A stretch of 28,153 nucleotides of DNA. It comes from a virus. Location: positions 1-28,153 of IMG/VR virus record IMGVR_UViG_3300044998_000451. One strand, written 5' to 3'. Positions 10,294 to 22,951 of the stretch are shown in pieces; position 1 is the first letter of the stretch; the number at the start of each line of letters is the position of its first letter. The translations under genes were made by a program, and so were the position numbers. Below the pieces are notes generated by a model, which saw only the letters and a program-made list of their open reading frames with translations, was not told the origin of the DNA and did not search any database.

Positions 10294-12110
10294 AATCCTA
10301 CCAATCCTTTGAACTCATCAAGTAATGATTTTTGATTTTTGACAGATGTGGATTTGTCGTTTTCGAGTTTTTCTTTTCTATTAAATTTCTTCATTCCGTG
10401 CTCGACAAACAGCTTTGTAACAAATTCGCCATTTACTGACCATGACTGCTCAAATCCATTACAATAGTAGAGGCGTTCTTCATCTGGAATGGATATGTTG
10501 CCAAATATGTCACGGGCGTACTCGACCGCTATCCCTTCGCGTGCGTTTTCATCACCTGCTATTTCAATGACTCCACCAAGCGCAAGATCATTATATCGAA
10601 ACCAAATCGCTAACGTTTTCTGCAACGCGTCTGTAATAAAAACACTTTCTGCTGCAATTATTTTCAGATTGTTTTTTGCGATAAATGATACATCAACAAT
10701 CAATGGATTGTAGCCATAAAGCCTGAGCACATTGATGTCCCAAATCGGTGTTGCTGCCGCCTCATCCATAGCAGGCGTTCCGGCAATACCTCTCTGCACA
10801 ACAAATGTTGAATATATTTTTGTCGCATCATAGTTGTTCAATTCTTTGTGGCGTATTATTACATCTGTGACAAGCAACGTTTCCAAATCCTCTAATTCAA
10901 GCAGACGCGGGTAAGCATTTGGGAAATCTTTTTCGTCTTGTGCTTTGTTGAATTTTGTGTAGTAAGGCGCTGGCCTGAAAACAAGATATGCTTTATCTTC
11001 ATCAAGCGATATTCGATCAACAAGTGTTGTTGATTCATATTTGAATGGCGATACCGCAAACCCTATTTCTTTGAACTTTGCGCTTAATGCTTTGGTGATT
11101 GCTTCACCTGCCGATAATGTAAAATTCAGCAATGATGATGTAAACCCTTCTTGACTGAAACGCTTTCCAAGCGTAATTTTTCTGCCGCCTGATGTGACAA
11201 ATATTTCGTTGAATGGCTTTGATGCAAACTGATTAAATATCGAAAAGAAATCACCAAGATTTGAAAGTTGATTCCAGTTTCTATATACTTCGTTTGTATA
11301 GAGTGCGCCGTTCACTGCAAATGCTGATGATGTGTCATCATATCTGCTTCTGTCTTTCACTACGAGAATGTCTTTTACTGTTAATATTTGTTCTTTCTCA
11401 TTGATTATGTACCAACCAAGTTCTTCAATACTTTGTAGTGTCGGTTTTTTTTCAGTGCGTTTTTTATAAATAATGTCAAACCATCGATTGTAAATTGCCG
11501 TAATAAGTTTTGGTGCAAGTTCGGTAAATGTAGTTAAGTTTGCATACGCACCAAGCGCACTTGTCGCAGATGTGTTGAATGGCGAATTTGAATACAGCGC
11601 CCACCATTGCTTATAGTCAAGCAACAACGCTCCCATATCACGACCTTGAACAGTGTATGTGTTTTCAAGTTTTGGGTTACGTGTTGCTGTGATCGTATCA
11701 ATTCTGCCAATCATCTGAACAACATCATTGATTTTTATTTTGACGTATGATTTGCGCACAAGCAAATCAGTTATTTTTGTTGTTCTGCTTTCAATAAAAT
11801 CAGGTCTGTTGCTTTCTTTAATAAAACTGAAAACCCTGTCTGTGATTTCGTTTGCTGAAATCACAAAGTTGAATGTGCCAGCTTGTTCAGCTAACGTCTT
11901 TCTGACGTTTAACGAAATCACATTTCCGCCAACATCACGATTCACAAACTGCATCTGTTTACCGTTAGGTGTTGTTATGAATATTTGTATTCTTGGCTTG
12001 CTCACAGATACATTTGAACGCTGTTGAGGCATTTGCCCTTGCGTTGTATTCAATAACGATTCAGGCGATGATTGATAGTAATTATTTGTTGCGTTAATGT
12101 AGAATGGCAT
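10290..12110 (-). CDS. Baseplate hub protein (gp27 / gpD-like)
   Basis: The 606-residue protein starts in a TAATG overlap with the tape-measure stop. The first ~35 residues are polar and flexible. The hub beta-barrel then shows as PRIQIFITTPNGK, GTFNFVISANEI, YVKIKINDVVQMIGRID and TYTVQGRDMGALLLDY: the strand-rich 'I-I-I-N-x-V-x-x-x-G-x-I-D ... GRD' pattern of late-control-gene-D/T4 gp27 hubs. The rest is long and mixed, with a second strand-rich part near the C-terminus (GEFVTKLFVEHGMKKFN). Position right after the tape measure and before the spike is the standard hub slot. The protein is longer than P2 gpD, so an extra insertion domain is likely. Confidence 0.82.
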   Translation of the reverse strand: MPFYINATNNYYQSSPESLLNTTQGQMPQQRSNVSVSKPRIQIFITTPNGKQMQFVNRDVGGNVISLNVRKTLAEQAGTFNFVISANEITDRVFSFIKESNRPDFIESRTTKITDLLVRKSYVKIKINDVVQMIGRIDTITATRNPKLENTYTVQGRDMGALLLDYKQWWALYSNSPFNTSATSALGAYANLTTFTELAPKLITAIYNRWFDIIYKKRTEKKPTLQSIEELGWYIINEKEQILTVKDILVVKDRSRYDDTSSAFAVNGALYTNEVYRNWNQLSNLGDFFSIFNQFASKPFNEIFVTSGGRKITLGKRFSQEGFTSSLLNFTLSAGEAITKALSAKFKEIGFAVSPFKYESTTLVDRISLDEDKAYLVFRPAPYYTKFNKAQDEKDFPNAYPRLLELEDLETLLVTDVIIRHKELNNYDATKIYSTFVVQRGIAGTPAMDEAAATPIWDINVLRLYGYNPLIVDVSFIAKNNLKIIAAESVFITDALQKTLAIWFRYNDLALGGVIEIAGDENAREGIAVEYARDIFGNISIPDEERLYYCNGFEQSWSVNGEFVTKLFVEHGMKKFNRKEKLENDKSTSVKNQKSLLDEFKGLVGL

Positions 12111-13741
12111 TATTTTGCTTTTTTCCCTTTTGTTGTTGATGTTGTTTTTGGCGCTGGAGTTACAGGAACTAAATACCCTTCGGCAGTAAACGCATAACCC
12201 GGTGGCGGTTTTACCACTCCGCCGGTTATCGGATTTTTTGTTTCACCGGGGCCGGGCTTTTTATCGCTGAAAAGCTCATCAAATTGTTCGACAAGTTTGC
12301 TAACACCTTTTGCTGTCGTACCTGCATAATCTAACATTTTATTTTGCAGATTGTGTCTTACGCTTGCTATATTAGCAGCTTGTTCACCAAGCAAAAGATT
12401 TTCGCTCTTAGCTTGTAATTTCGATGTTGCTGATGTTGTAGTTACAAATTCCCCTACGCCTTCTTTTGCTGTACCAAAACCCTGATCCGCAAAAGCGCGT
12501 GCTTCGCCAACACCCGTTCCGCCTAAACGTCGAATGAATAATGCTTTTTCAGTCTTATTCATTCCCATCGTATCCATTTGTGCGCTAAGTGCTGCCATGT
12601 TTTTGCCTGTCGCGCCTTGGCTAAGACGCTCCATCACATCAAGCACGTCTGCTTCCTTGCCAGTATCTTTTTCCATTTGGTTTTTTACTGCTGCAAAAAG
12701 CACAGACTGAACTGCATCACCTTCAAGATTTGACGCTTGTTGAAATTTACCAGTTATTGTACTGCTAATTGCACCTGCTCTGTCTGCTGACAATTGCTGA
12801 CCATTCACTTTGACGCCATAAAGTGCAGATAAGCCTCTGGCAACATCTTTGCCTAAATCAGAATCTTTCATACCAGACAAAACGCCTTGATGTGATGCTT
12901 CTTCAAGAATACTACCGAGTTGTTCAAAATATGCTTTTGCTTGAATCTTATCATTTGTTTGGCCGCGTATTATTTTTTCAGCACCGCTAACATCAAGTCC
13001 TGATTTATTTAGATACGCCGCTGTTTTACCCGCTTCTTCATCGCTAAGTCCGAAAGTTCCAGCAAGACGCGTGTATTGTTTAATGCCTTTCATTGACGCT
13101 TCATTGCCCATCGTCAGACCATAAGACAACCGTTGCTGTGCAACTCTTGATGATGAAAGTCCATAATCAACATCCGCTTTTGTTGTTGTGCTAAACAAAC
13201 GATATGTTTGCTCTTGCTGTGACATCAATTCATCGTGCCGCTTTCCAATTGAGTTTATCAATCCGAGTCCTGCGCCAACTACTGCGCCGACACCTGCAAG
13301 AGCCGGAGCAATTTTAGAACCAACACCGCCAACAACACCTTCATCACCACCACCACCGCCGCCACCACCACTTGCGTGTGCTGTTGCTGTTGGTTTGTTT
13401 GTAAACATTTTACCAATGCCACCAACAAATTTTGCGCCCATGTTGTATAGACCACCCATGCCAGCGCCTTGCATAACCGATTGCAAGCCTGATACGCCTG
13501 CTTGAACTATGCCCGGTGATGCAACTGCCGCTCTTGTGCCTGTTGCTATACCTGTTCGCTGTGCTCGTGCAACCTCTCTGTATGCGTTTTGCGCATACTC
13601 TTTTTGCATTCTGCCGATTAGCTGTTTTTGATTTTTTGCAGCTTTTCCAGCTTCTTCAACAACACTGCGAATATTTTTCTTTGCTGTGTTTGTCGATTGT
13701 GCTGTTAAATCTTTACCGCGAATTTCTATTTCGGCTTTCAT
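12110..13741 (-). CDS. Tail tape measure protein (short)
   Basis: The protein has 543 residues. ATG overlaps the chaperone stop as ATGA. The N-terminal ~65 residues are charged and helical. A Gly/Ala-rich part contains an uninterrupted run of eight glycines (about 125-132), followed by an apolar glycine-rich helix (about 144-163, IAPALAGVGAVVGAGLGLIN) that could insert into the host membrane. Residues 170-470 are helical and Gln/Ala/Ser-rich. The end is Pro/Lys/Thr-rich, as expected for the terminus threaded into the hub. No peptidase or lysozyme domain is visible. At about 0.15 nm per residue the tail would be near 80 nm. Identification rests on helical composition, the apolar segment and the slot between chaperones and hub. 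Confidence 0.85.
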   Translation of the reverse strand: MKAEIEIRGKDLTAQSTNTAKKNIRSVVEEAGKAAKNQKQLIGRMQKEYAQNAYREVARAQRTGIATGTRAAVASPGIVQAGVSGLQSVMQGAGMGGLYNMGAKFVGGIGKMFTNKPTATAHASGGGGGGGGDEGVVGGVGSKIAPALAGVGAVVGAGLGLINSIGKRHDELMSQQEQTYRLFSTTTKADVDYGLSSSRVAQQRLSYGLTMGNEASMKGIKQYTRLAGTFGLSDEEAGKTAAYLNKSGLDVSGAEKIIRGQTNDKIQAKAYFEQLGSILEEASHQGVLSGMKDSDLGKDVARGLSALYGVKVNGQQLSADRAGAISSTITGKFQQASNLEGDAVQSVLFAAVKNQMEKDTGKEADVLDVMERLSQGATGKNMAALSAQMDTMGMNKTEKALFIRRLGGTGVGEARAFADQGFGTAKEGVGEFVTTTSATSKLQAKSENLLLGEQAANIASVRHNLQNKMLDYAGTTAKGVSKLVEQFDELFSDKKPGPGETKNPITGGVVKPPPGYAFTAEGYLVPVTPAPKTTSTTKGKKAK

Positions 13742-14208
13742 GTAACAACCTCATTGAGACGCTTTGCGATTTCAACCATTTTGTCGCGTGCGCGTTCTGC
13801 TGCTATTTCAGGATTTTCCTGAATATCAATTCCAAATTCTTTTTTCTTTTCTGCAATCTGAATATTTTTGATTTGCTCGCACTTTTCAATAATGCGACTT
13901 TGAATTTCAGACTCTGTTAATTTTCCGTCGTGACGCAATTGCGAAGCAAGTGCCTCTCTGAACACAGGCGCAACAAATTCAAATGCTGCTCTGTTTTCCA
14001 TTTCTGCTATAATGCTCAATTGCGCTTTTCTGATCTTAATTGATTCTTCATCGTTCAACAACGCAAATCCATCAAACAGCGCCTCTTTTATTTCGTCATG
14101 TAGTTCGAGGAATCTGCTCTCTGTTGGCAGACAATGAAACTTGTGGCATATCCACAAGTCCCGTAAAAGATAACCATCAGGCTCAGGATTATTTACCTGA
14201 GCCGTGAT
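13738..14208 (-). CDS. Tail assembly chaperone, downstream (frameshift-expressed) part
   Basis: The reading frame is +1 (equivalently -2) relative to the ORF starting at 14560. It is open from just after a TAA at 14217-14215 to the stop at 13738. It lacks a credible start: there is no ATG before residue ~50 of the downstream part, and the TTG at 14157 has no proper ribosome site. It is therefore best read as the extension of the upstream ORF, giving a fused product of about 274 residues, like lambda gpG-gpT or the Mu gp41/gp42 pair. Content is helical and charged (HDEIKEALFDGF, EKCEQIKNIQIAEKKKE), with a Cys/His cluster (WICHKFHC) near its beginning. Its stop overlaps the tape-measure ATG. 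Confidence 0.82.
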   Translation of the reverse strand: MTAQVNNPEPDGYLLRDLWICHKFHCLPTESRFLELHDEIKEALFDGFALLNDEESIKIRKAQLSIIAEMENRAAFEFVAPVFREALASQLRHDGKLTESEIQSRIIEKCEQIKNIQIAEKKKEFGIDIQENPEIAAERARDKMVEIAKRLNEVVT

Positions 14209-14216
14209 TTTTTTTT
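14180..14216 (-). promoter_or_regulatory. Programmed frameshift element: A9 slippery run plus hairpin
   Basis: On the minus strand nine A (14216-14208) are followed by TCAC and then a perfect 8-bp inverted repeat, GGCTCAGG / CCTGAGCC with an 8-base loop (14203-14180), which spans the stop codon of the first chaperone ORF. From the likely slip codons AAA-AAA the stem starts 6 bases downstream, a typical distance for a stimulatory structure. Slipping back two bases (or forward one) enters the open downstream frame; slipping back one hits a stop within five codons. There is no T-run after the stem on this strand, so it is not a terminator. Confidence 0.8.
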
Positions 14217-14560
14217 AATTTCGCTTGTAGCGATTCTGTCAGTTCGATGTATTGTTCATATAGATACTCAATCAAGGATTCATCGTAACATTCAGACGCT
14301 TTTGTGAACCAGTCAGGTGCTTTTACAATCGCAATATCAAGTATTACGTTGCGCCTGACGTATTCAGCTTCTGTTGCGTACAGACCATTTCCGTCAGCAA
14401 TCATATTGCTGACGGCCCTGATTGCTGCTTGCTTCTGATATGGCAAAAGTGCCTTAATGACAAATTCGCCGCGCTCTGTTGGACAGGTACGCTGAACATC
14501 TGCTTCTGTGATGCCCAGCGTAACCGCTTGCTTTTCAAACTTACTGTCTATTGCTGACAT
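14189..14560 (-). CDS. Tail assembly chaperone, upstream part (gpG-like)
   Basis: This 123-residue protein starts at ATG 14560 behind a TAGGAG site. It is helical and acidic in its C-terminal half (YDESLIEYLYEQYIELTESL) and ends Lys-Lys-Asn-His-Gly-Ser-Gly-Lys. The slot between tail tube and tape measure, the small size, and the second ORF that can be reached only by frameshift mark it as the lambda gpG-type chaperone that coats the tape measure during tube assembly. The abundant short form would come from normal termination at 14189 and the rare long form from the frameshift near 14210. Confidence 0.85.
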   Translation of the reverse strand: MSAIDSKFEKQAVTLGITEADVQRTCPTERGEFVIKALLPYQKQAAIRAVSNMIADGNGLYATEAEYVRRNVILDIAIVKAPDWFTKASECYDESLIEYLYEQYIELTESLQAKLKKNHGSGK

Positions 14561-14580: not shown

Positions 14581-15009
14581 TTATTTCGCGTAAACCATTT
14601 GCAAACGTGTTGCTTTCCAGCGTGAATTTTTTGTTGCCAATTGACCTGCTGTGAGTGAAAGACTGTTGCCATCGTTCACTGCATCAACAAGTTTCAGGAA
14701 TACTTTGTTTGTCACGTTGTCGATCAACTCAAACGTAAACGGTTCGATTGTATTAACATTATCACGCGTTGCAACAATCATGTTATCCTGAACCGGCTGT
14801 CCATCAACAACGGGGTCTAACACAAATGTGCCAACGGTAAAATCGCACTCATAATCGAGTGATTTGAAACCGATTGGCCCATGCTTACCAAGCACTTTGA
14901 TTGCTTGCTGCATCAGGTTCTCATCGATTTCAACGCTTGTTGCGTATCCGACAACGCGACCATTTTGCGTCACAATGCTGTCGATACCTGTTTTAACGGC
15001 TGTTTTCAT
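14581..15009 (-). CDS. Tail tube protein
   Basis: The protein has 142 residues, and ATG at 15009 follows AGGAAGGT. It is beta-rich (VVGYATSVEIDEN, ECDFTVGTFVLDP, EPFTFELIDNVTNKVFLKL), of the usual size for inner-tube proteins of contractile tails, and directly follows the sheath gene. The C-terminal part (NSRWKATRLQMVYAK) suits the final strand of the tube barrel. It would polymerise as hexameric rings inside the sheath. No sequence signature alone is decisive; the sheath-tube-chaperone-tape order makes the call strong. Confidence 0.85.
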   Translation of the reverse strand: MKTAVKTGIDSIVTQNGRVVGYATSVEIDENLMQQAIKVLGKHGPIGFKSLDYECDFTVGTFVLDPVVDGQPVQDNMIVATRDNVNTIEPFTFELIDNVTNKVFLKLVDAVNDGNSLSLTAGQLATKNSRWKATRLQMVYAK

Positions 15010-15023
15010 CTGTTACCTTCCTG

Positions 15024-16781
15024 TTATCGTGCGCCAAGCACGCTGAAACGGTGTGTTGCCGGTATAAAGTTTATCGGCAGTGTCACAATACCGTCGTATG
15101 AAATTTCATACACATCACCTGTGACTTTGACGACATGGTTTGTAATTGCAATTTCACCATTGGCGCGATTCTCTGTGAACCAACCACGTGCAAGCAATTG
15201 TTCAAGCACTTCAAGGCTGTATGATTCAAGCAGCGATTGCGCAAGCGGTGTACCTGCAACACCGATAAAGCGTTCTTGCAAACGCGCACGGTGTGTTTTG
15301 ATGATTGCGATAACAGTTCCCATCGCAGACCATTCATTTGCAATGATGTTCGCACCAAAATATGTCGTGACCGATCTTTCGATCTTGAACCCGCCACCGC
15401 CTTCGATTGGTGTTGAAATCATGCAACCAGCTTTGATGTACGCTTCGACTTGCGGCGTTGAGTACGTTTTTGCTGTTTTCACAATGTTGAATTGCTTATG
15501 TGTCAGTGGCGTTGTCGGGTCATTGCCTGCTGACATGCCAGCAATACCTGCACTCAACAGATAGCCGGGCATTTGTTTCAGAACACCTTTTGAGTCAAAG
15601 CGATAGTCATTGCCGCCATAAAAGCCAACAAACTGACTGCCGATTGATTTCGATTTTGCCTGAATCGCAGAATCTGTCACATCTGACAAATCACAGCCTG
15701 TGAAACCGCGCCTGTCGCGACGTGTTTTTGTTTGGTTTGCGAAATTGACGTGTGCTTGCAGCATTGCATGAATTGATGCAGAACCTGTCATAACACCAAC
15801 AAAATCAGCATCAAAATTCAGTGAAAAATCGAGCGCGTTTGACCACTCAGTGTTTGTTGTTACACCTTCAATACCACCTGTCAGATATTCAAACGATGTT
15901 GTGTTCGCGACATTTGTGCGTTCTGTTTCGCTTGCGATTGATGCAACAACAATCCCTGTTGTATTCAAATAATCGATAACTGCTTGCACATCAGCTTTCA
16001 GTGTCAGTGCTGCCGATTTAATATCGACCGCTGATACAACATCGAGTTCTGAACCGAGTGTTTCAGCAAATTCTGTGTTGACGATTTCTGCTGTATAACC
16101 CGGCTGCGCTGCAATGTAATCAACGATTTTCTGAATCGTATCATACGTTGCGAATGGCACACTCAGATTTTGCGAACCGTCTGTTTGCCCTGTTAGCGCA
16201 GTTGTGATTTCTGTCGCGTTTTTTGTTATCGTCGCTGCTGTTCCGTTTCCGATGTACTGAATCAGTATCACTGAACGTGTGATATTGTCTTGCGCAAATG
16301 TTTCACCATCTTTGCGAACCTGAACAAACTTACCTATCGTTCCTGTTGAAACGCTTACGGCAATTCCTGTTGTGTGCAAACCGTAATCATTGCTTTTTAC
16401 GAGAATTGCATTGTTCGCGCCGCTGTTCTTGATGTTCATTTGGCTGCGCGTTGCAGGGTTTACACGCAACACGGCAACTTCACTTGCGCCGGGGTTAATC
16501 CGCGCATCATTTGATGCGTTCAGCGCAATAAGCACTGCTTCAAGCGCATCGCCGCTGCGCAAAACGCGTTTTGCTTCTGAACTTTCACTGAAAAACATCA
16601 AGCGTTCTTCTTCTGGAAAATCTGTTGAACCAAAAGGAATACCACCTTCTGATTTCGCAATCACGATCATCGTTCCAAGCGGAACACCACCGACGCGGCC
16701 ACCCGCTTCGATGTCTTTCTTTGCATAGTAACCGGGGCGAAATATATTCGCGCCGTTAAATGTTAATGGTCTTACAGGCAT
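15024..16781 (-). CDS. Tail sheath protein
   Basis: The protein has 585 residues. ATG at 16781 is preceded by AAGGGAGAA. The N-terminus (FNGANIFRPGYYAKKDIEAG, then GGVPLGTMIVIAKSEGG) matches the opening of contractile sheath proteins. The middle is a variable alpha/beta insertion region. The conserved C-terminal domain shows the hallmark ERSVTTY at about 468-474, a helix (SLLESYSLEVLEQLLARGWF), and a final handshake strand (YDGIVTLPINFIPATHRFSV). This protein forms the contracting outer tube; its presence is what sets the morphology of the phage. Confidence 0.95.
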   Translation of the reverse strand: MPVRPLTFNGANIFRPGYYAKKDIEAGGRVGGVPLGTMIVIAKSEGGIPFGSTDFPEEERLMFFSESSEAKRVLRSGDALEAVLIALNASNDARINPGASEVAVLRVNPATRSQMNIKNSGANNAILVKSNDYGLHTTGIAVSVSTGTIGKFVQVRKDGETFAQDNITRSVILIQYIGNGTAATITKNATEITTALTGQTDGSQNLSVPFATYDTIQKIVDYIAAQPGYTAEIVNTEFAETLGSELDVVSAVDIKSAALTLKADVQAVIDYLNTTGIVVASIASETERTNVANTTSFEYLTGGIEGVTTNTEWSNALDFSLNFDADFVGVMTGSASIHAMLQAHVNFANQTKTRRDRRGFTGCDLSDVTDSAIQAKSKSIGSQFVGFYGGNDYRFDSKGVLKQMPGYLLSAGIAGMSAGNDPTTPLTHKQFNIVKTAKTYSTPQVEAYIKAGCMISTPIEGGGGFKIERSVTTYFGANIIANEWSAMGTVIAIIKTHRARLQERFIGVAGTPLAQSLLESYSLEVLEQLLARGWFTENRANGEIAITNHVVKVTGDVYEISYDGIVTLPINFIPATHRFSVLGAR

Positions 16782-17018: not shown

Positions 17019-17795
17019 TTATTTGTGAGTGATAAGAATGCAATTAGACTTCTGCTTAAACGCATCGAACGGGTAAAGCAAATTTTCACCTTGTGCATGG
17101 TTGCGATAGTGTTCGTATTTGTTGCCATACGGGTCATTTACATAGAAACCGTTTTCATCAAATCCACGTATCACAATGACATGACCACCAAATCCGCCGC
17201 TGCGCAATGGTATGCGAATACCAACAACTACTGGCTTTTTTTCCGTGCGCAAATAGTGTTTGATTTCTTCAACAGTCATTTCTGCATGACGTGCTTTGAA
17301 ATCACCTAAACATCCAAGCACATTATTGTTAATATACCAAACCCAAAAGGAATAAAGCCCGCGAACCCACGTAAACTCTTTTGATGTTTCAATCCACTTT
17401 TCGCCCGTTACTGCTGCAAGTTTAATACGATAAGTCATGTTGTTTTTTGCAGTATCTTCAATAATAAGGTTGTCAAATCTTTCATTCGCAATCTTTGGAT
17501 TATTTTTTCCACCATAAATCGGTTGATTTAATGTACGCAACGCCATTGAAATACTTGTTGGAAAACAAGTAATATGCGGGTCAATAACGTCGTCTTTTTC
17601 CATTTGGCTGTTATGATTAACATAATTCAGCCAAATGCCGTTTTCGTTTTCTGTATAAAATGATGTTGCTGTATTTTTTGCTGCATCAAGCACGTTGCCA
17701 AACCAACCGTTGCCTGCGTCTGCGTCTGTTCTTTTACCGATATTAACAAATCGCGAAATGAATTTGAATATCGCTATTAAAATCGTTTGAATCAT
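17019..17795 (-). CDS. C39-like cysteine peptidase (papain-like fold)
   Basis: The protein has 258 residues and starts in an ATGA overlap with the upstream neck gene. The peptidase core shows Cys77 in ITCFPTSISMAL, His205 in GGHVIVIRGFDENGFYV, and Asp221 in VNDPYGN, spaced as the Cys-His-Asp triad of C39-type peptidases. Residues 1-17 form a hydrophobic or amphipathic helix (MIQTILIAIFKFISRF) that may anchor it. In phages such enzymes usually cut peptide bridges of peptidoglycan, either as part of the virion or as an endolysin. It is the only peptidoglycan-hydrolase candidate in the window. Its location in the neck region, not with the holin-like gene, leans to a virion-associated enzyme. Confidence 0.8.
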   Translation of the reverse strand: MIQTILIAIFKFISRFVNIGKRTDADAGNGWFGNVLDAAKNTATSFYTENENGIWLNYVNHNSQMEKDDVIDPHITCFPTSISMALRTLNQPIYGGKNNPKIANERFDNLIIEDTAKNNMTYRIKLAAVTGEKWIETSKEFTWVRGLYSFWVWYINNNVLGCLGDFKARHAEMTVEEIKHYLRTEKKPVVVGIRIPLRSGGFGGHVIVIRGFDENGFYVNDPYGNKYEHYRNHAQGENLLYPFDAFKQKSNCILITHK

Positions 17796-20695: not shown

Positions 20696-22951
20696 TTATT
20701 CGTTTTCCTCGTTATTGCCTGTGTCAAGTTCTATGCGTTCACCAAACTGCATATTGAGTTCGTGAATCTGTTGTGAATACTGTTCACCGAGTTTTTCCCA
20801 GTCAATCAGTTCGAGTATTGACGCTTCACGTTCCGCACCAAACCTACCGCCTGTCGTCAGAGTTGATGTTGCCACGTTGATAAGCGGATTTCCGGCAACC
20901 ATTGCATTCGCGTTGCTTAGGCGTCTGCCAACACGTGTCGCTTCACGCTGATCTAATTGCGAATCTGTTTGCAGCCAATACATTTCTGTAATACGCAAAT
21001 CAGGTGTAAGACGGTGCGTGCGGCCAACAACCTGTTCATATTCTTTATCTGAATAAGGCAAAGTCATGTTGATTTGTACACGTGGTGAATCACCACGCAC
21101 ATCGTGAAAGCTGATACCAGTTCCACCTTTTGCCATTGAGCCAACAAGCACGCGCTTTTCGCCTTTTTGAAAAGCGCGATGTTCTTCAACAGTTTTTTTA
21201 TTGGTGTTGCCATGAATTTCTGCAACGACATTTGCACCACCAAGGCGCTTTGTCAGTTCACCAGTAATAGGTGGAATATTTGGTAAATTCTTCACTGCAA
21301 GATCAAACTGTCGCGATATTTGAGCCAATTGCGCTCTTTGCTTTTCGTTGAGCGCCTGCATTTCTCCACCCGTCATCACTTTGATAATGTCGTTGTAAAC
21401 TTTGTTGAATGCTGAATACAAATGTGTATGACCGCCAACATTATACGCGCTCAGAATTACAGGCTGTTTGCCGTTTTGAATGGCTTTCTTTGCGAGTGCT
21501 GCCGCAATAGGTATTTTTGTGTATTCAAGATAGTGACGATACCAACCTGCAAACATTGCACCAACAAACATTGATGTTTTGCCACCAAGTCCTGCTTGTG
21601 CGGCAAATGATTTCACCATAGTGAATGCTTCAATGCCTTTATTTAAGACTTTGATTTGTTCTTCTGTCAATTTGTGTGTACCGAAAAAGTTATGCAAACC
21701 GCGCAAATTTGCAACGCGCTGAATCATATAACCCTGCGAAACAAGAAATTTGTTAAGCAGTTTTGATTTACGAACGATTTGCGCTTCTGCTGTTTCAGGC
21801 GATTCGTTTTTCCTTTTTCTATAATCAAATTTTTTCTGAAATTCTTTCCAACCACCGAATGCTTCAAACAGACCTGTGTTTTCCATCCAGCCCATTTCTG
21901 ACACATCAGTGAATGGTGTGGCGCTCATATACAGAGTTTTCGTGCAGCGCCCGATCATCTTCATTGTGTTCTTTGTTTGTGTGGTTTTCTCTGCTGCGGC
22001 GTTATGAATCTCATCAAATACGCCATAATCAAATTGCAGTGCATCTGCGTTTTGCAACTTACGTAAATCATCATAACCAACAACATAAACACCTTCTGAT
22101 TCAGGCGAATCACTAAGAAGGTTTTTCACGTTTTTTGTCGCGATGCCAAAACCTGCTGCTTCTTGTTTCCAACTATTAAGCAAATTCTGTTTGCCGCGTG
22201 TCGGCACAACGACAAGAAAACGCTTTTTGCCATGATCGATCTGCATCGCTTTTATTGTCGCAAGCGCCGTTGCTGTTTTCCCCAAGCCGGGCGCGTTAGC
22301 GATAAGAAACCCATCTTTGTTTTGCAATTCAGAAAGTACGCGCTCTGCATCTTCAACCTGATAATCAAACAGTGTATTATAGCGCCTGTTGTAATTGCTT
22401 TCAGGTTCATTTTCGTTAAAGTAAGAGTTTTTGTATCGCTTTGCTTCATCTGGTAATCTGACAGTTATCGGTCTGCGTTGCACTTCAACGCGATTTGTCA
22501 CCATTGATGGTTGACCTTCAACAAGGCGACGTTCGCGGCGTTGTTGTTCGAGTTGTTTTTGCATCGCCTGTTCTGCCGTTACCCTTGGCATTTCAGTGCC
22601 TTCACGCTCAAAATGCAGCGGCAATGTGTTTGCGTCATTGATGTTATTGAACAGCGAATTTATACCTTGCTGTCGTCTGTATTCATCGACTTGACGTTGA
22701 AACCTGCGTTCTGATCGTTCTTCACGATTGCGTACACGATCTTCACGTTGACCAGCTTCTGATGTTTCATCAATACGGATATAATAGCGTTGCTGTCTGC
22801 CATCTGTGCGCGTTCTCACGACAGGTATAAGCGGTGTGCCATCTGCCGCTGTACGTGGTGCACCCGATGTCACTTTTACGACAGAACCGTTTGCAAGCGT
22901 CAAACGCGTTCCGACTTTAGGTTGTTGACTTTTTGTTAATACAAATTCCAT
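20696..22951 (-). CDS. SNF2 / strawberry-notch-like superfamily 2 helicase
   Basis: The protein has 751 residues. Residues 1-190 are Arg/Gln/Glu-rich, probably coiled and partly disordered. The ATPase core has motif I APGLGKTAT (Lys225), motif II DEIHN (313-317), motif III MSATPF (342-347), motif V GGTGISF (609-615) and motif VI VVGRTHR (641-647). The GRTHR form and the GxS-F-H phrase before it recall the strawberry-notch helicase C domain, also found in phage P1 DarB and in mobile-element helicase-methylases. No methyltransferase motif (DPPY/NPPY) is seen. It would translocate on or remodel nucleoprotein with ATP. Unusually, it is embedded between capsid and tail genes, 1 base after an 82-aa gene. 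Confidence 0.85.
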   Translation of the reverse strand: MEFVLTKSQQPKVGTRLTLANGSVVKVTSGAPRTAADGTPLIPVVRTRTDGRQQRYYIRIDETSEAGQREDRVRNREERSERRFQRQVDEYRRQQGINSLFNNINDANTLPLHFEREGTEMPRVTAEQAMQKQLEQQRRERRLVEGQPSMVTNRVEVQRRPITVRLPDEAKRYKNSYFNENEPESNYNRRYNTLFDYQVEDAERVLSELQNKDGFLIANAPGLGKTATALATIKAMQIDHGKKRFLVVVPTRGKQNLLNSWKQEAAGFGIATKNVKNLLSDSPESEGVYVVGYDDLRKLQNADALQFDYGVFDEIHNAAAEKTTQTKNTMKMIGRCTKTLYMSATPFTDVSEMGWMENTGLFEAFGGWKEFQKKFDYRKRKNESPETAEAQIVRKSKLLNKFLVSQGYMIQRVANLRGLHNFFGTHKLTEEQIKVLNKGIEAFTMVKSFAAQAGLGGKTSMFVGAMFAGWYRHYLEYTKIPIAAALAKKAIQNGKQPVILSAYNVGGHTHLYSAFNKVYNDIIKVMTGGEMQALNEKQRAQLAQISRQFDLAVKNLPNIPPITGELTKRLGGANVVAEIHGNTNKKTVEEHRAFQKGEKRVLVGSMAKGGTGISFHDVRGDSPRVQINMTLPYSDKEYEQVVGRTHRLTPDLRITEMYWLQTDSQLDQREATRVGRRLSNANAMVAGNPLINVATSTLTTGGRFGAEREASILELIDWEKLGEQYSQQIHELNMQFGERIELDTGNNEENE

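Follow-up and report, generated by a model that had tools for sequence, protein, structure and literature searches.

Recoded pairs of tail assembly chaperones, G and GT, are well known and come in -1, -2 and +1 versions (PMC5009743), with the lambda pair and similar recoded tail chaperones treated by Xu, Hendrix and Duda (2004), as cited in PMC5009743. For forward shifts no general motif is known (PRFect, PMC10885494), and a +1 shift has been demonstrated at the UCC_UUU_CGU site of influenza A PA-X (PMC3498833). A cassette of nine A's in another gene gave 40% frame change, with the responsible agent left unsettled in the part of PMC3711429 that deals with it. In the open-licence literature, we found no paper that describes a nine-A (A9) version of the pair for Leptospira phages, UUU_CGN within tail chaperone genes, or G/GT made by transcriptional slippage; such absence counts as weak evidence.

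The locus studied here lies in virus record IMGVR_UViG_3300044998_000451, a stretch of 28,153 bases (the window). The phage has a contractile tail, and its structural genes are encoded on the minus strand. The structural block encodes a major head protein (a phrog_752 match), the tail sheath (15024..16781, minus strand; phrog_279, 1.9e-51), the tail tube (14581..15009, minus strand; phrog_3776 at 7e-15 and phrog_985 at 4e-5), G, T, a presumed tape measure protein and baseplate protein J. The G/T pair sits between the tube gene and the presumed tape measure gene (12110..13741, minus strand; 543 aa), which was assigned by synteny, from its position after G/T; its product had no match in the family search. 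Inside the same block, positions 20696-22951 encode a 751-aa helicase with a Strawberry-notch-like C-terminal domain, and a C39-like cysteine peptidase gene with a phrog endolysin match lies just upstream of the sheath gene (17019-17795). Rfam and tRNA scans of the window gave no match.

Using hhalign, we compared window G (14560-14189, minus strand; 123 aa, ending ...LKKNHGSGK before a TAA at 14191-14189) with the G profile of the SPO1/PHB04 clan, which takes in the SPO1 chaperones gp10.2/gp11.1, and obtained a probability of 95% (E 3e-8); T (13738..14214, minus strand; 158 aa, beginning KKITAQ) matched the T profile of the clan with a probability of 80% (E 1.4e-5). By these profile alignments, G and T are homologous to SPO1-type tail assembly chaperones. 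The AlphaFold model of G is of low confidence (pLDDT 62); comparison with a viral structure library likened it to LP65 Orf100 and to proteins annotated as tail assembly chaperones, which is weakly supportive, and a PDB search with it returned no significant match (top YqbN, E 1.8).

T overlaps G in the +1/-2 frame and has no convincing start of its own. The cassette at the junction reads TTA-AAA-AAA-AAT in the G frame (14207..14218, minus strand), with the A9 run at 14216-14208. It creates a UAA in the T frame (14215..14217, minus strand; the same in all relatives), directly after which T is open for 158 codons, to 13738. Since the cassette's own UAA closes the T frame upstream, no frame change can fall before the A-run begins, and the crossing zone given in an earlier note on this DNA, from the TAA at 14217-14215 to the end of G at 14189 with A9 inside it, is confirmed. 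The same note held that a -1 shift would stop within five codons, and the -1 frame after the run does so (TCA CGG CTC AGG TAA). Near its 5' end, T offers a single in-frame start candidate, a TTG at 14157, which lies inside the T coding region and has no obvious Shine-Dalgarno sequence before it. As read from this arrangement, T is reached only by a frame change. T stands in the -2/+1 frame, and A9 permits -2 and +1 re-pairing alike.

To find relatives and to place them by tree we used the sheath protein, which shares about 25-29% identity with the sheaths of Leptospira phages and numerous other myophages. Searches of viral contigs with the sheath, G, T, capsid and helicase of the window found no near kin, and a search of genome contigs with the sheath found none either. 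The relatives examined for the A-run comprised Leptospira phages LE1, LalZ, LbrZ and LnoZ, 19 viral-contig records and three Leptospira plasmids; one record (L009 in our numbering of loci) stops short of the site, and the 26 complete loci represent 21 distinct sequences, window included. All 21 have exactly YTAAAAAAAAAT at the site, followed by KKI in T, and the 20 other distinct relatives show YTA-AAA-AAA-AAT in the same phase, with T always in the +1/-2 frame. The frame relation described in the earlier note is thus shared wherever the locus is complete, with T in no case fused to G or in another frame, and no G-T fusion is annotated in any of the annotated Leptospira records examined.

Codon usage around the site points to constraint on the nucleotides themselves. 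In the G alignment upstream of the site, every one of the 14 other conserved codon-degenerate columns shows synonymous variation, with two or more codons in use across the 21 sequences, and Leu at other conserved G positions is written with several different codons. By comparison, the third base of the four cassette codons never varies in the 21 sequences; only the first base of the Leu codon alternates between C and T, and its wobble base, which supplies the ninth A, is fixed throughout (21/21). Outside this site, A9 runs number about five in 108 kb of coding sequence of these phages. Directly after A9, substitutions in the relatives are biased to position 3 of the T frame, and this bias from the motif onward indicates that the T frame is translated from there. 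KKI, the first T residues, are among just six invariant T columns, although part of that invariance is owed to the same nucleotide constraint acting in the other frame.

Further features of the overlap were recorded in the Leptospira group. In 17 of the 21 distinct A9 sequences the -1 frame meets UAG or UAA immediately past the run, and this immediate stop is absent from L017, L018, L037 and the window. Where it is present, a -1 slip or a transcript with ten A's would end ...LKKK, so that a G without its long tail is a possible third product in this group, as far as the reading frames indicate. In loci such as L002, L005, L006, L015, L017, L020, L036 and L037 the G frame reaches about 280-315 nt past A9, and this extension of roughly 100 codons over the start of T is uninterrupted in every one. 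Substitution rates are lowered in the shorter overlap of LE1 type (L007 vs L025). The long overlap is probably dual-coding sequence with an overprinted G tail.

Downstream of the run, the window has the perfect 8-bp stem noted earlier, six bases after the AAA-AAA codons: GGCTCAGG-TAAATAAT-CCTGAGCC at 14203-14180 (14180..14203, minus strand), with the G stop codon in its loop of 8, and the 60 nt downstream of A9 fold with z = -2.6. None of the 20 other distinct relatives has a matching stem at the site; their z values run from -1.1 to +1.6 and they share no common stem. The hairpin is therefore not a conserved stimulator, and of the earlier proposal of a -2 (or +1) programmed event with a stimulatory hairpin, the programmed change at A9 into the +1/-2 frame stands and the hairpin falls away; the suggested alignment with relatives likewise bore out the A-run in 21 of 21 sequences and the stem in none of 20. 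The hairpin may assist in the window phage itself, outside the conserved signal. Perfect stems of at least 8 bp are common in the window, with 20 distinct ones, or 30 under shuffle-style counting vs 2-16 in shuffled sequences; such hairpins are in excess on the coding strand (14391-14415, 14139-14159, 21151-21178 and 16 other places), and one 11-bp stem lies inside G itself. Viewed on the plus strand, the stem after A9 looks like a terminator followed by T9, a reading of A9 as a terminator's T tract that we rejected because the relatives keep A9 without the hairpin. An upstream Shine-Dalgarno-like stimulator was not found as a common feature either: GAG precedes the motif in many Leptospira sequences, and not in LE1, L020 or the window.

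Among wider kin, the T ORF again lies in the +1 frame, and A9 is missing. These kin include phages Bordetella PHB04, Aeromonas ST4, Pseudomonas Dolphis and Touem01, Yersinia Yen8-01, Enterobacter T5282EW and Morganella Mecenats66, a Rhodovastum plasmid, SPO1, Lactobacillus Semele and Thermus Lalka27a, as well as Exiguobacterium, Listeria, Enterococcus and Aerococcus representatives. NNN_UUU_CGN occurs in the G frame near the end of G in 15 of the 16 resolved non-A9 relatives, a count conditioned on that string being found beside a long +1 ORF; the one resolved exception is LP65, with UUU_CUC. The hosts behind the 15 loci (L003, L004, L027-L035, L039, L041, L043 and L044) are Gram-positive bacteria, Gram-negative bacteria and Thermus. 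Two phages, Bacillus Mater and Staphylococcus PSU5 (L040, L042), were left out of the counts, as their chaperone genes were not found in the stretch examined; after the tube gene, Mater has an HNH endonuclease gene and PSU5 an endonuclease-like ORF. The Phe codon is UUU in all 15 loci, even where UUU makes up 8-16% of Phe codons, whereas other conserved columns use many codons. The SPO1 record carries an annotated +1 slippage; SPO1 and influenza A PA-X have the same site, UCC_UUU_CGU. The earlier note had set this locus against the usual -1 shift, a contrast that loses its force here, since the +1 frame is the rule in this clan of contractile phages.

The window has no NNN_UUU_CGN in the G frame inside the overlap. 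In the G profile alignment (E 3e-8), UUU_CGN faces CTA CAA of the window at the alignment's end, and most of the Leptospira group have, by position, a Phe codon opposite it. It thereby stands four codons, or nearly so, upstream of the YTA of the A9 motif. One Leptospira relative (L002) retains UUU_CGA, where a +1 shift would meet the UAA of the A9 motif. The sheath tree places the window as sister to the Leptospira phages (support 100/98) with the UUU_CGN phages outside that group; neither the root nor the placement of the Thermus phage is certain. From this distribution, the slip signal was probably exchanged once, in the ancestor that the window shares with the Leptospira phages, and the frame relation was retained. 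Most likely A9 took the place of an older +1 signal, UUU_CGN, in the window lineage; we favour UUU_CGN as the older state because it is spread over several clades and persists as a relic in L002. Judged by the sheath tree alone, with its unsure root, the exchange may have run in the reverse direction.

The exact cassette, the unvarying +1/-2 relation, coding in the T frame from the A-run onward and the homology of G and T together argue for a programmed slip cassette, and we regard a programmed frame change at A9 that makes G and GT as very likely. Most products would terminate as G, while a minority would switch frame within YUA-AAA-AAA-AAU into the T frame to give a GT fusion, the two forming the usual short and long pair of tail assembly chaperones. 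We infer both the production of G and GT and the step at which slipping happens; our high confidence covers the frame change itself, not the polymerase step. As to the agent, RNA polymerase and the ribosome each come to a little under an even chance, with the polymerase slightly favoured and a small remainder for anything else.

In the favoured step, RNA polymerase would slip on A9, so that transcripts carrying 8 or 11 A's would lead directly into T and those with 10 would end at once or soon after. This candidate, to which we give not quite an even chance, was named as an alternative in the earlier note and accounts for the conserved features no less well than ribosomal -2 or +1 shifting. At nine A's in all 21 sequences, the homopolymer at the junction reaches the minimum of 8-9 A or T expected for such slippage; bacterial RNA polymerase is reported to slip efficiently on a run of exactly this length (PMC5009743), and the A9 tract of Yersinia tssM3 slips at 15-25% (PMC4256274). 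No downstream structure or ribosomal stimulator is conserved, the A-site codon AAU is not a stop and is not known to be slow, and the ninth A, which is the Leu wobble base, stays fixed even though a single-tRNA -2 or +1 step would not need it. Polymerase slippage would, however, permit longer runs, other phases and another relative frame, whereas all 21 sequences keep one length, phase and direction, a constancy that favours the ribosome by the rule given in PMC3711429 (a tendency rather than a strict requirement). The window's own 3' hairpin could act on the ribosome only, and these phages tolerate further A9 and T9 runs within coding sequence, which limits how harmful slippage at nine can be. 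The fuller scenario, in which GT would arise by polymerase slippage on a frozen A9 swapped in for a ribosomal +1 UUU_CGN with the frame relation kept, is tentative and a shade less probable than the polymerase step by itself.

The two ribosomal routes are each rather unlikely when taken singly. In a -2 shift, the better of them, tRNA-Lys on the second AAA would slip back two bases to give ...L-K-K-K-I, as proposed for Mu, whose gpGT offers a precedent at about 2.2% (PMC3498833). Constant direction and phase in all relatives agree with it, as do the window hairpin at 6-nt spacing and the -1 stop right after A9 in 17 of 21 sequences, which makes a -1 slip alone a dead end; yet the hairpin is absent from all relatives, natural -2 events are very rare, and a single P-site tRNA would need only A3-A8 paired, while A1, the Leu wobble base, is also fixed. 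Somewhat less probable again is a +1 shift, in which P-site tRNA-Lys would move forward one base on A9 to give ...L-K-K-I; the whole clan would then have stayed +1 with just the P-site codon altered, from UUU_C to AAA_A, a version we likewise consider improbable. The 15 of 16 resolved non-A9 relatives with NNN_UUU_CGN in the same relative frame, and the +1 annotation of SPO1, speak for it, but AAU is neither a rare codon nor a stop where +1 events usually need a slow A-site, and four A's would suffice rather than nine.

That T is a separate protein with its own internal start and A9 incidental is very improbable: the TTG at 14157 and an internal ATG about 22 codons into most Leptospira T ORFs could serve as starts, but conservation in the T frame begins at the A-run, KKI and A9 are invariant (the latter in 21/21), and no obvious Shine-Dalgarno sequence precedes 14157. 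Homopolymers are error-prone in general, but a misread A-run length or a defective gene can practically be set aside, because A9 and the frame relation are identical in 20 other distinct phage, plasmid and viral-contig sequences.

These phages thus provide a natural comparison, in which homologous chaperone genes in the same overlapping frames carry two quite different slip signals, UUU_CGN and A9, and the pair makes an interchange between ribosome and RNA polymerase in setting the G to GT ratio testable. UUU_CGN also supplies a clear signal for +1 shifting in tail genes, and it is the signal worked out for influenza PA-X. If the polymerase does slip at A9, this would be the first G/GT pair made by transcriptional slippage, and a recoding mechanism would have been swapped between ribosome and polymerase.

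Set beside the known systems, the window shares with lambda G/GT the overlapping ORFs between tube and tape measure genes and a startless second ORF reached by frame change, but lambda shifts -1 and the window's target frame is +1/-2 with A9 as its cassette. The target frame is identical to that of Mu gpGT (-2), a likeness by frame alone. Systems of transcriptional slippage (the A9 of Thermus dnaX, Shigella spa13, and Citrobacter and Yersinia tssM) have a run of at least nine A's or template T's and no other conserved signal; unlike these programmed systems, the window lineage keeps the slip direction constant. SPO1 gp10.2/gp11.1 and the rest of the UUU_CGN clan (Herelleviridae, PHB04/ST4-like phages, Thermus Lalka27a and the Rhodovastum plasmid) have G and T homologous to the window's, in the same gene order and relative frame, but carry an NNN_UUU_CGN four codons upstream, with no A9, where the window has A9.
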